Below, one piece after another: positions 38,811 through 43,004 of a stretch of 43,140 bases of DNA. Under the pieces are notes generated by a model, which had not been told where the DNA came from, searched no databases, and saw only the letters and a program-made list of their open reading frames with translations. Position 1 is the stretch's first letter; each line of letters starts with the position of its first letter. Made by a program: the position numbers and the translations under genes. This DNA is from a virus, in IMG/VR virus record IMGVR_UViG_3300044301_005092, positions 1 through 43,140 of that record; one strand, written 5' to 3'.

Positions 38811-41342
38811 TTACATTCTAGAAGTTACTAAAGATAGCATTTTTCCCACTTTACTTCCATTCATACTAATGCTTGTATCTTTTCCAGCTATCTTTTTTAA
38901 TAATCCTATTATTGCCGCCATAAATTTTGGGTCTCCCCCAAATCCCATTTCTCCTGCTTTACTTAATGGTATAACAGCTTCAGGTTCTCCTCCTTCACCA
39001 ATTAAGGCTGTTGTAGGTGTATCAACTATACCACCCTCAGCTAATCCAACCATTCCTGCTAAATCAACACTTGGAATTAATCCAATTCCCCATCCTAAAG
39101 GATCTAAGAAGAAATTAATTCCTTCAATTAACCAGTTTATACCTGTTATAATACCATTTATAACTGCATTAAAAGGTGCTATCATATATCCTAAAATACC
39201 TTCTCCAATCATTTGTAATCCTTCTAATATATCACCATTTAAAATTTTTCCAACTCCTTTAAACATTTTTCCAATAGATTCTACTACTGGTAGTATATAA
39301 TTTAAGACATTATTTAAAACAAATTCTAATGGTCGTTTAATAGCCCACCCAATAATTTCACCAATAGTTCCAAATACGTCTGCTGTGCCTTCTGCTGTTC
39401 CAAATATTTCATTAAAAGTATCACTTATTGATTGAAATACTTGATTCCAAGCATCTATTATTTCTCCTATTACTGCAAATATGGGTCTCATAATACCTGA
39501 TAAAACTTGTCCAACAGCATCAAAAATTGGTTGCATTTCTCTTATCATAGGCATTATAGTTTCTCCCAATAAATTAGCTATATATTCAAAAGCTGGCATT
39601 AAAGGTTCTACCATAGCTACAAATAATGACTGCATTTGCTCTGTTATAGCTGCCATTCTATCTTGTATACTTGCTGATTCTAATTGATTTGCTAATGCTT
39701 CATCCCCCAATTCTTTTGCTGCTGCTTCAGCTGATAGTCCCTCTGCTCTTAAAGCATTATATTTTGCTTGAGCTTGAGACATTGTAGTAATTGCCTCACC
39801 ATTTTCATCTGTGTGTCCCTTAAAAGCTTCTGCTAATGCTTCTGCTTGTTCTTGAGCATACAACATTTCTGACATTTCTTCACGTGACATACCTAATGAT
39901 GCTGCTAATGCTTGTTGTTGAATAACATTCATTTCACCAAATTCAGCAGCTGTCCCTATTTCTTTTCTTATTTCTTCTGCTAATTTTCCTATCTTTCCTT
40001 CTAAAGCATATTGTCTTGCTTTTTCTAAATTAAGTTGTTTTCCTGTTAATAACTCAGCTTTCATTTCTGCTTCTATAGATGATTGAAAATCAAGTAAATT
40101 TCCTCCTATACTTTCTAATTGTTGTTGAGAAGCTCCTAACATTTTTTGTTGAAATACCATATTAGCCATTGATTGGCCTTGGGCTTTCATAGTTAATAAA
40201 GTAGCTTTTGATGAACTTGCTATTCCTTCTTGGACTTCTTTAAAACTTAAATTTAATCCTGTTTGATGGTTTAACTCCATTGTTTGGAGAGAAATATCAT
40301 TAAGTAGAGATTTTTGAGATTTACCCGTTATAATCATTTGTTGAGCAAAAAACTTTTGAGCATCAGCACTAAGACCTGAGTATTTTGCTATTTCAGCAGT
40401 TTCTCCTGCCATTTGTGATGTAAAGTTAACTGATGTTCCTAAAAGTGAATTAAGGGATGTTTGTCCCTTTATAAAGTCTTTTTGAGTTACTAAAACATTA
40501 CCATATTCTACTGCTTGTAGTCTTGCTTGTTTAGCAACTTCTCTACCTTCTGCTGCTGATATACCAAAGTTTTTAGCTATTTCTGCTCCTGCTCCATCAA
40601 GGAATTTAAATGCTTCTACTAATTTTTGAACTAAAGCCAGTATCGCTCCTACCCAACCAAATGATTTAAGTAGGTTTTTACCTAATCCTTTAGCAAAGTG
40701 AGACATAGACTTAAATTTACTAACACCTCCACCTGCGCCTTTTACCATATCTTGGGTACTTTTTAACGCATCTTTCATACCCATTCTATCTGCTAATTTC
40801 CCACCACCCATTTTTCTAAAAATACCATCAACTGCACCTGCGGCATCACCTAACAACCCTGTTGATTGTTCTAGCATTTTTTCATTCTTTGCAGCTTTAC
40901 CTATAGAAGCTGTTATCTGGCCAAATAATCCATCAGTTTTACCTAAAATACCTGTTATATTTTCTAATGTAATTAATTCTTTTTGGGAAGCTTTTCCCAT
41001 ATCTGCTTTTGAAGAAAGTAATCTTTGAGATTCTATTAAATTTTTCTTTTCAGCTTGTGCTTTTTGAAGAAGTGTCTTTAGATCTTTAGAACTAGTTTGA
41101 GAAATATCATCTGTAGCATCTTTAACTTTTCCTAAAATTCCAGATAAATTAGTTACTGCTTTTTTTGCTAAACTATATCCCTGAGCTTGACCTGTTATTT
41201 CATCTGTTATAGACTGTAGGCCACTAAACATATCGTCAACATCAGATTTTGTTGAACCAAATGTTCCTTGGAGTTGTTTTGCGGCTTTTGCCGCTCTCTC
41301 CATATTATCTGCGTATTGTTTTGCTTTTTTAGGATCTAACAT
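38811..41342 (-). CDS. Tail tape measure protein
   Basis: An 843-aa protein that sets tail length and is ejected with DNA. The first 200 residues are coiled-coil-like, rich in Lys/Ala/Gln; about 225-245 and about 640-765 hold hydrophobic membrane-like segments; near the C-terminus is A-L-I-G-E-G-G-E-P-E-A-V-I-P-L-S, a pattern common at the end of tape measure proteins. Position immediately after the frameshifted tail chaperone is the classical one. Length of 843 residues would suit a tail of roughly 120 nm by the usual 0.15 nm per residue rule, which is inference. Confidence 0.88.
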   Translation of the reverse strand: MLDPKKAKQYADNMERAAKAAKQLQGTFGSTKSDVDDMFSGLQSITDEITGQAQGYSLAKKAVTNLSGILGKVKDATDDISQTSSKDLKTLLQKAQAEKKNLIESQRLLSSKADMGKASQKELITLENITGILGKTDGLFGQITASIGKAAKNEKMLEQSTGLLGDAAGAVDGIFRKMGGGKLADRMGMKDALKSTQDMVKGAGGGVSKFKSMSHFAKGLGKNLLKSFGWVGAILALVQKLVEAFKFLDGAGAEIAKNFGISAAEGREVAKQARLQAVEYGNVLVTQKDFIKGQTSLNSLLGTSVNFTSQMAGETAEIAKYSGLSADAQKFFAQQMIITGKSQKSLLNDISLQTMELNHQTGLNLSFKEVQEGIASSSKATLLTMKAQGQSMANMVFQQKMLGASQQQLESIGGNLLDFQSSIEAEMKAELLTGKQLNLEKARQYALEGKIGKLAEEIRKEIGTAAEFGEMNVIQQQALAASLGMSREEMSEMLYAQEQAEALAEAFKGHTDENGEAITTMSQAQAKYNALRAEGLSAEAAAKELGDEALANQLESASIQDRMAAITEQMQSLFVAMVEPLMPAFEYIANLLGETIMPMIREMQPIFDAVGQVLSGIMRPIFAVIGEIIDAWNQVFQSISDTFNEIFGTAEGTADVFGTIGEIIGWAIKRPLEFVLNNVLNYILPVVESIGKMFKGVGKILNGDILEGLQMIGEGILGYMIAPFNAVINGIITGINWLIEGINFFLDPLGWGIGLIPSVDLAGMVGLAEGGIVDTPTTALIGEGGEPEAVIPLSKAGEMGFGGDPKFMAAIIGLLKKIAGKDTSISMNGSKVGKMLSLVTSRM

Positions 41343-41370: not shown

Positions 41371-41688
41371 TTAACGTTTTTTCATCGAAGATTTAGATAC
41401 ATAATGTGGTCTTTTTGGCATTTTCTTTTTATCTGCCATATTAGCCAAGTCTATATTAGTAGTACTTTTATTTCTACCTTTTCCTTTTGACTTATTACCT
41501 GCATTTTTGTAAGCTTCTGCTTCTTCTTCTTTAGCATCTCTTATCCGAGTATATGTTAATTTTCTTAACCATATAGGCATTGAATATACATCATACCAAG
41601 TAAATCCACCACCTCCATGGTAAACTATATCGTGGATAGATTCAAATAATTGTTTTCGATACTGCCCAACTAAATGTCGGGCCAGAAA
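41371..41688 (-). CDS. -1 frame extension of the tail assembly chaperone (frameshift product)
   Basis: In the -1 frame after the slippery site at 41694-41688 an open frame of 105 codons runs to 41371. It reads F-L-A-R-H-L-V-G-Q-Y-R-K-Q-L-F-E-S-I-H and then H-G-G-G-G-F-T-W-Y, and M-P-I-W-L-R-K, with a Lys-rich C-terminus. There is no ATG in the part before residue 37, although the sequence there is clearly protein-like, so translation most likely enters by frameshift from the 246-aa gene, giving a 346-aa fusion. The arrangement matches the gpG/gpGT pair of lambda. A separate 69-aa product from the internal ATG at 41580 is the alternative. Confidence 0.75.
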   Translation of the reverse strand, partial: FLARHLVGQYRKQLFESIHDIVYHGGGGFTWYDVYSMPIWLRKLTYTRIRDAKEEEAEAYKNAGNKSKGKGRNKSTTNIDLANMADKKKMPKRPHYVSKSSMKKR

Positions 41689-42410
41689 AAATTTGCTCCA
41701 ATTGGGATGCTTACTTCTTTTTCTGAATCTTCAGGAGTAAATGTTAAGTCTATGTTAGGTTGAGTTGCAGTTAAATGATCTCTAAGGGCTTTAGAATCTC
41801 GAGCTAAAAAATAAGTATCTACAAATTCTCTAATTGCTTTTTTATCTCCATTACCATCAATTGATGTAAGCATATATTTCCATCTTGTTGATAATTCTGG
41901 GGATGCATTTTTGTTTATTTTTTGTAAACCTTTAATTTCTTGTTTAATTGCTTTATCATCTTTACCTGTTAAAAGTTTATATGTAACTTTAGCTTCAGTT
42001 GTAGGTAATTTAAATGAAAAATTATTTACACCTTTTTGTTCTAAATGTTCTTCATTTAAGTATCTAGATTCAATTTTTGATAAATCAACTGTTACTTCTT
42101 TATCACCATATTTAAAATTATAATCTTTTCCATAACCTAATATTCTTGCTGCGACCATAATTGCATTTTTATCTCCTACTATTAAGTCATCATAATTAAC
42201 ACCAGGTGTAACTATAAGTGCTTGTAATAATCTATCTAAAACACTTCCGTCTTTAATGTAATTTTGATTAGTTAAAATATCTTCTTCTTTAGCAGTCATA
42301 TATTTCATTTCTACTTCTCCTTTTGAAAGAGGATTTTCTTCAGGATATATTAATCCTTTACTGGGTAATTCTACTATTTCTGTAGGGAATTTAAATTTAG
42401 CTGTATCCAT
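41670..42410 (-). CDS. Tail assembly chaperone (zero-frame product), T4 baseplate-protein-like
   Basis: A 246-aa protein containing V-E-L-P-S-K-G-L-I-Y-P-E near residue 15 and Y-M-T-A-K-E-E-D-I-L-T, features I associate with the T4 gp26-type baseplate assembly family (PF12322), and ending F-F-W-P-D-I. It lies between the tail tube and tape measure genes, where tail chaperones sit. Near its end the in-frame heptamer A-AAT-TTT (41694-41688) permits a -1 shift into the 41371-41688 frame, so most ribosomes would make 246 aa and some 346 aa. A terminator hairpin (42465-42488) separates it from the tail tube gene. Confidence 0.8.
   Translation of the reverse strand: MDTAKFKFPTEIVELPSKGLIYPEENPLSKGEVEMKYMTAKEEDILTNQNYIKDGSVLDRLLQALIVTPGVNYDDLIVGDKNAIMVAARILGYGKDYNFKYGDKEVTVDLSKIESRYLNEEHLEQKGVNNFSFKLPTTEAKVTYKLLTGKDDKAIKQEIKGLQKINKNASPELSTRWKYMLTSIDGNGDKKAIREFVDTYFLARDSKALRDHLTATQPNIDLTFTPEDSEKEVSIPIGANFFWPDI
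41688..41694 (-). promoter_or_regulatory. Slippery heptamer for programmed -1 ribosomal frameshift
   Basis: On the minus strand A-AAT-TTT, in zero frame, followed by TTC-TGG. It fits the canonical X-XXY-YYZ rule and is placed five codons before the zero-frame stop. The -1 frame downstream is open and protein-like for 105 codons. Confidence 0.75.
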
Positions 42411-42515: not shown

Positions 42516-43004
42516 TTAGAAATTTAATATACAGTAATCCATTCCAATTACAATAGATAAATTTATGGCAGTTGTATCTTCATCCCAATTGTAATCGCCA
42601 AATGTTGATGATTTTATGAATGCCCCTTTAACAATCCACTCAGATACGATATCTCCTACTGGTCCTAAAACATCAATAGTTAAATCTTTCTTGTAAAAAT
42701 CTGAGTAACCATCTCTACCTGTAACAGATTCATGGTGTAATCTTGTCCATTCCATTACAGCTTGTGCACCTGATGGTGTAATTGGATCAAATAATGTTAA
42801 GGTTAAATCATTCCATCTTAATTTACCTTTTATTTTTCTATAAACATTGATATGATTTAATACGATTTCTTCTTGAGAAAAACCCATACCACTTACACCT
42901 TTAATAACATAAGAAGGTATTCCATCTACATATAGAATAAATCTATTTGCTTGTTTGGGTTCAAACGCCGTAAAAAATATTTCATTTGGGTCTAATACTG
43001 CCAT
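42516..43004 (-). CDS. 19: Tail tube protein (T4 gp19-like)
   Basis: A 162-aa protein of normal gp19 length. It contains K-Q-A-N-R-F-I-L-Y-V-D-G-I-P-S-Y and K-G-V-S-G-M-G-F near the N-terminus, L-T-L-F-D-P-I-T-P-S-G-A-Q-A-V in the middle and W-I-V-K-G-A-F-I-K-S-S near the end, the typical tube fold. Stacked hexamers form the inner tube of a contractile tail; the sheath C-terminus lies just upstream, in the usual sheath-tube order. Single-gene transcript levels may be set high by the terminator right after it. Confidence 0.92.
   Translation of the reverse strand: MAVLDPNEIFFTAFEPKQANRFILYVDGIPSYVIKGVSGMGFSQEEIVLNHINVYRKIKGKLRWNDLTLTLFDPITPSGAQAVMEWTRLHHESVTGRDGYSDFYKKDLTIDVLGPVGDIVSEWIVKGAFIKSSTFGDYNWDEDTTAINLSIVIGMDYCILNF

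Follow-up and report, generated by a model that had tools for sequence, protein, structure and literature searches.

For phage lambda gpG/gpGT, the slip site is GGGAAAG, and it is not known to be followed by a strong hairpin. A single lambda gene yields the short gpG and, when ribosomes shift to the -1 frame close to its 3' end, the long gpGT (Xu, Hendrix and Duda 2004; PMC5009743), and this gene is located between those for the tail tube and the tape measure protein. Frameshifting of this G-T kind is a conserved trait of phages with long tails, T4 excepted, the shift being -1, -2 or +1 depending on the phage (PMC5009743).

T4 gp26 and gp51 are listed as hub assembly chaperones (PMC3004832). 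As cited in PMC10885494 and PMC12846349, Vladimirov, Gautam and Davidson (2022; Virology 566:9) described the chaperones of T4-like phages as the products of a short gene and a longer fusion gene, and also reported poly-T -1 sites in T4-like phages; because these two papers cite that work for the assignment of gp26/gp51 as chaperones, we treat the assignment as known. Pseudomonas phage Adele, a myovirus, has a conserved poly-T -1 frameshift between the chaperone and the tape measure, but with an invariant GTTTTT motif, and the passages of PMC12846349 that describe it mention neither +1 relatives nor a hairpin. In the literature searched, where Vladimirov et al. 2022 is represented by citations of it, we found no report of a +1 type in this family, of a reversal of shift direction or of an accompanying hairpin.

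The window analyzed here, a 43,140-base IMG/VR virus record from a marine T4-like phage, resembles lambda in that one gene, located between tail tube and tape measure, appears to give a short and a long product through a -1 shift close to its 3' end. It resembles Adele in the poly-T -1 site, and it shares with T4 the protein family (PF12322/phrog_150), within which gp51 carries an extra C-terminal domain. T4 differs in having two paralogous genes for the short and long products, as opposed to one apparently frameshifted gene in the window.

Probable slip site, reading frames and predicted products in the window

In the window, AAATTTTTTC lies directly ahead of the stop codon of a T4 gp26-type gene, the 3' end of which reads GCA AAT TTT TTC TGG CCC GAC ATT TAG (Table 1). 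Two overlapping heptamers of the X_XXY_YYZ form typical of bacterial -1 signals, A_AAU_UUU and U_UUU_UUC, occur here in the correct frame, and slips at either one would produce the identical junction peptide GANFFLAR. The core TTTTTTCTGGCCNGAY is found once in the window and in none of 100 shuffles. Downstream of the site, the -1 frame is open for 104 sense codons followed by a stop codon, for a predicted fusion of 346 aa. In this frame, the ORF listing contains no ATG, GTG or TTG upstream of the conserved MPIW motif, and the earliest such codon, at 41580, is within the conserved block. The first-pass annotation had reported the in-frame A-AAT-TTT ahead of the zero-frame stop, a -1 frame open for 105 codons (the stop included), the lack of a usable early start, the fusion length and the junction peptide, and all of these hold.

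Table 1. Features of the frameshift locus and its neighbors in the window
Feature	Position	Strand	Evidence or size
Tail tube protein, upstream neighbor	42516..43004	-	phrog_4542, E=1.8e-20
Zero-frame ORF, putative short form (TAC-N / gpG-like; T4 gp26 family)	41670..42410	-	246 aa
Slippery stretch A AAT TTT TTC	41685..41694	-	sequence; also present in the second -1 lineage
Heptamer A_AAU_UUU within the slippery stretch	41694-41688	-	sequence
Heptamer U_UUU_UUC, overlapping A_AAU_UUU	41691-41685	-	sequence
Stem-loop GCCCGAC-AUUUA-GUUGGGC	41664..41682	-	predicted RNA fold; 7-bp stem, 5-nt loop
Zero-frame stop codon TAG	41670..41672	-	sequence
-1-frame extension (putative TAC-C / gpT-like; probably related to T4 gp51 C-terminus via jumbo-phage extensions)	41371..41685	-	104 aa + stop
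Tail tape measure protein, downstream neighbor	38811..41342	-	phrog_1535, E=1.8e-15

The slippery stretch is followed by a predicted stem-loop that begins 2 nt past U_UUU_UUC or 5 nt past A_AAU_UUU, with the zero-frame stop codon straddling the junction between the loop and the 3' arm. The predicted fold, of the kind expected for a structure stimulating a -1 shift, reaches -13.6 kcal/mol over 50 nt (z -3.56), and none of 200 shuffles was equally good. The first pass had missed this hairpin as well as the +1-frame extension present in most relatives.

The 246-aa ORF matches the T4 gp26/gp51 family profile phrog_150, 'baseplate hub' (E=2.6e-8); the match to Pfam T4_baseplate (E=6e-4) is under the curated cut-off. 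PHROG matches to both neighbors (Table 1) back the position between tail tube and tape measure given in the first pass, and the same gene order is found, by position and annotation, in immuto, SP-15 and LIS04. When the AF2 model of the short protein (pLDDT 90.8) was compared to viral models, the matches were baseplate hub and hub-assembly proteins of T4-like phages, including SP-15 gp26 (E=1.9e-17). Among PDB folds, the match with the best probability was the HK97 tail assembly chaperone 2ob9, a weak one (rank 2, E=1.3, probability 0.38, TM 0.47 by target length), and a PDB sequence search with the short protein returned nothing relevant. The model of the extension (pLDDT 71) consists of two helices linked by a short one and a disordered tail, with no match in a PDB fold search. 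The extension also gives a sub-threshold match to DUF6760 (PF20546, E=0.09), a family of unknown function.

The gene order, the membership in the gp26/gp51 family and the conservation of the extension support the identification of the window gene as a T4 gp26-family tail assembly chaperone. The first-pass annotation also proposed a tail-chaperone function for the T4 gp26-type proteins of this phage group in general. The same observations support this proposal, but it is not new, the chaperone genes of T4-like phages having reportedly been described by Vladimirov et al. 2022. The original finding is real, and its interpretation is mostly right and partly known.

Judging from the sequence, a -1 frameshift very probably gives rise to a short and a long form of the chaperone. 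Most ribosomes would terminate at the TAG codon, yielding the short 246-aa chaperone, and a minority, stalled by the downstream hairpin at AAATTTTTTC, would slip back by one base and produce the 346-aa protein, whose C-terminal domain is predicted to be helical. The example of lambda gpG/gpGT suggests that the short product might coat the tape measure protein and that tail tube subunits might be recruited by the long one. We infer the slippage of the ribosome, its frequency and the roles of both products; the conserved frame, site and hairpin, the lack of an independent start codon, the gene order and the family membership are directly supported.

Two classes of putative shift sites among the relatives

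Relatives were collected by protein-based scans of IMG/VR and GTDB genomes and a pattern scan, which resulted in 289 usable gp26-like loci; six loci from a second pattern scan, also -1, were kept apart. The extension could be recognized in 287 of the 289 loci, and in none of these does it share the frame of the short gene (265 loci have it in +1 and 22 in -1); it is conserved as a protein in more than 280 related loci. Clustering at 90% identity produced 161 representatives of the +1 class and 10 of the -1 class. Part of the -1 class was recruited by a pattern containing TTTTTTCTGGCC, which to some extent builds in the conservation of those bases; this does not apply to the frame, the hairpin or the upstream AA. 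A second -1 lineage, with about 50% identity to the window, shares the site, the frame and the downstream hairpin, and with this recurrence a programmed -1 frameshift in the tail assembly chaperone, as originally suggested, is the best reading of the locus.

According to the first-pass annotation, homologs with independently started genes and no conserved heptamer would count against frameshifting. Comparison across the relatives showed that the heptamer is absent from most of them, which instead carry the extension out of frame behind a conserved +1 site, and not as a separate gene; the -1 stretch recurs in the second lineage. Some phage records list a small ORF downstream as a gene of its own, for instance 'gp51' in cyanophage S-SCSM1, a 54-aa ORF that opens with ATG, and hypothetical ORFs in jumbo phages, as would be expected if the extension were a separate, translationally coupled gene rather than part of a fusion. 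This arrangement is improbable for the window, where the frame has no start codon ahead of MPIW, and an ATG ahead of the conserved block is likewise absent in 9 of the 10 -1 representatives and 130 of the 161 +1 representatives; moreover, a conserved slippery site lies in the overlap, accompanied in the -1 class by the hairpin.

Codon bias at the shift sites is strong relative to gene-wide usage. The consensus of the +1 class is nnV TTT YTT TGG CCT GAC (site TTT-YTT-TGG-CCT-GAC). CCT is used at this site in 159 of 161 representatives, compared to 40% of Pro codons gene-wide, and the following codon has C in the third position (GAC-type) in 143 of 161, compared to 21% GAC among Asp codons gene-wide. 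The pattern persists among representatives with less than 65% identity (CCT in 42/43 and YTT_T in 41/43). In YTT_T, re-pairing in the P site is possible one base forward, and the CTT variants correspond to the shift codon of prfB (CUU_UGA), where the P-site tRNA re-pairs in the same manner. The A-site codon is UGG (or UAC) in the +1-class relatives, whereas it is a stop codon both in prfB and in Listeria phage PSA (CCC_UGA); PSA further differs from these relatives in shifting on a proline codon, in capsid and tail structural proteins.

The base preceding TTT is T in only 4 of the 161 +1 representatives, compared to 39% of third bases, and because T is avoided in this position, the -1 heptamer is removed. 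In addition, CC-TGA-C places a -1-frame stop two codons past the +1 site in 151 of 161 representatives. We infer that this TGA is a selected safety stop; an alternative cause for the T in CC-TGA-C is Leu coding in the +1 frame. In the -1 class, the consensus, represented in 9 of the 10 representatives, is A AAT TTT TTC TGG CC[CG] GAY: TTC takes the place of YTT, and CCT is never used, so the -1 frame stays open.

The two classes also differ in the predicted RNA fold downstream of the site. Each of the 10 -1 representatives reaches a folding energy of -10 kcal/mol or lower (mean z -2.07), whereas there is, on average, no hairpin among the 161 +1 representatives (mean z 0.07; rank test p=5e-7, which ignores relatedness). 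In the L203-type hairpin, the 3' arm is formed by the rare Arg codon CGG, which accounts for none of the 54 Arg codons in -1-class gp26 genes outside the window lineage, and in L206 and L238 a comparable stem is formed by different bases. In L256, only U_UUU_UUU is present and the stem begins 5 nt after it. The spacing of the hairpin favors A_AAU_UUU as the slip site in the canonical -1 class, given that 2 nt would be short if U_UUU_UUC slipped, though either heptamer may be the one used.

Conserved T6-T7 runs in an AT-rich genome could also, in principle, produce mixed mRNAs by transcriptional slippage, with no slippage of the ribosome. This is highly improbable because the run of the -1 class is broken by C (T6C), part of the +1 class has TTT CTT TGG without a long run, and the hairpin accompanies the -1 class only. 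Specifically for the +1 frame, transcriptional slippage on T7 was excluded by immuto L003, L087, L113 and L126, which have TTT CTT TGG and no T7 run, and -2 slippage was excluded because CTT is unable to re-pair at -2.

A few loci depart from the ribosomal-shift patterns described above. Two members of the +1 class, L261 and L280, have AAT TTT TTT TGG CCA GAC, breaking both usual rules with T before TTT and with CCA, which leaves the -1 frame open over about 37 codons; these are possible intermediates able to slip both ways. In L145 (2767-3800), the gp26-like gene ends in FFWPDI with TTTTTTCTGG, yet the extension is in the +1 frame and holds an apparent second copy of the junction (YEFFGLTFEYN).

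Apparent reversal of shift direction

A quick gp26 tree, from which the C-terminal columns had been left out, nests the window in a +1 clade (SH-aLRT 99). No other member of that clade is of the -1 type, and the remaining -1 phages group apart. An AU test rejected the tree in which all -1 rows are held together, and with it one common origin of this type (p=0.007). Thus, by sequence comparison, the -1 type seems to have arisen independently at least twice within the phage group. Recombination is a less likely route: the extension of the window is closest to that of a +1 relative, with 55% identity to L299 versus at most 48% to the -1 phages, and the shape of the window hairpin, with its 5-nt loop, is unlike that of the other -1 phages.

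Where the +1 relative L018 has TAA-G-TATCGAAAA, the window has TAG-TTGGGCAG-TATCGAAAA, a net insertion of 7 nt that alters the frame and provides most of the 3' arm of the hairpin. The +1 site of the window was lost through the substitutions TTT to TTC and CCT to CCC, not through an indel, and the -1-frame TGA of the +1 class is missing.

As the sole -1 case in its clade, the window might be suspected of an assembly or sequencing error masking the +1 site of its relatives, and the first pass had named an error in the T6 run as a way in which its reading could fail. Such an error is unlikely because two further IMG/VR contigs from other samples (3300044305_003112 and 3300044270_003153) are 100% identical to the window across the locus. 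An error in the frame as a whole is barely credible considering, in addition, that the +1 site is broken by substitutions, that the -1-frame TGA is absent and that the hairpin is present.

With the -1 frame taken as genuine, a tentative scenario, which we put forward with less than even confidence, is that the ancestral state was a hairpin-free +1 shift and that the window lineage turned to -1. The 7-nt insertion, which resembles an inverted GCCCGAC, might have arisen by a template switch, moving the frame and building the hairpin together, and the two substitutions would have switched off the +1 site and the -1-frame stop. If this is true, the direction of frameshifting would be readily reversible, with selection keeping the product ratio constant. 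The apparent reversal among close relatives, with the coordinated changes in slip site, -1-frame stop and hairpin, is the part of these results worth pursuing: close +1/-1 pairs (about 70% identical) allow tests of the requirements for forward versus backward slips and of the conservation of the product ratio.

The wider family and its relationship to T4 gp26 and gp51

A +1-frame extension is present in Flavobacterium phage immuto and Microcystis phage Mel-JY01, and also in Bacillus phage SP-15, Listeria phage LIS04, Streptococcus phage GXN1, Rhodothermus phage RM378 and an uncultured 484-kb phage, the frame in these last five being assigned by eye or by one weak profile match. A -1-frame extension is found behind U_UUU_UUY in the jumbo phages GAP32, 121Q, Munch, RaK2, Atu_ph07 and Vibrio phage 2.275.O, as well as in the jumbo phages XaC1, CM1, PA5oct, XacN1 and Hallingskeid and in cyanophage S-CAM8; as independent -1 cases, these phages add support to a -1 frameshift in the window. 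In the large phages of Gram-negative bacteria, the codon preceding the site is AAT, CAT, CGT, TAT, AGT or GCT; because of these codons, most of the sites are unable to use A_AAU_UUU and fit U_UUU_UUY. A hairpin was considered as a general trait of the jumbo-phage -1 sites and rejected, the picture being mixed (mean z -0.87), with strong hairpins only in Atu_ph07, PA5oct, S-CAM8 and perhaps Vibrio 2.275.O.

No extension follows T4 gene 26. Both T4 gp26 (E=6.7e-71) and gp51 (E=2.6e-84) match phrog_150, and both match PF12322; in gp51 (PF12322, E=4e-52), phrog_634, 'baseplate hub assembly catalyst', covers an extra stretch at the C-terminus, and the 54-aa 'gp51' of the cyanophage consists of this stretch alone. 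Cyanophage gp51 has been described as reaching just some 20% of the full-length protein (Sullivan et al. 2010, PMC3037559). Direct comparison of the extension with the gp51 C-terminus was not significant (E=0.077), and bridging comparisons with hhalign connected the Bacteroidota-type extensions to the jumbo-phage extensions (E=1.2e-7) and the latter to gp51 (E=7.5e-5). Indirectly, via the jumbo-phage extensions, these matches suggest that the extension is homologous to the gp51 C-terminus.

One family in one genome position thus apparently obtains its short and long products by +1 slippage, by -1 slippage or by gene duplication as in T4. In most Bacteroidota-type relatives, +1 slippage would occur at TTT-YTT-T, with looser +1 sites in Thornevirus; the large phages of Gram-negative bacteria would use -1 slippage at U_UUU_UUY, and in T4, the paralogous genes 26 (short) and 51 (long) would yield both products. 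The fused second product is annotated in none of the records examined, and in many T4-like and jumbo phages the annotation of the 'baseplate hub' gene leaves out the C-terminal domain.

Several additional observations pertain to individual members of the family. T4 gp26 (L251:5803-6429) gives a weak match to phrog_1140, 'baseplate hub distal subunit' (E=9e-4), and gp28-type proteins may be related to gp26/gp51. In S-SCSM1 (L414:2188-2374), the +1-frame extension has its own ATG and is annotated as a separate gene 51, with TTT TTC nevertheless retained at the end of the short gene; in S-CAM8 (L415), the -1-frame extension is unannotated. For the Vi01-like phage May, no tape measure chaperone was detected (PMC6509524). 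In Serratia phage Kevin (Ackermannviridae; L417, 2150-2360), a gp26-family gene ends in CAG GTT TTC ATC TAA, with extension-like sequence in the -1 frame, and this gene family is a candidate for the tape measure chaperone of Vi01-like phages.
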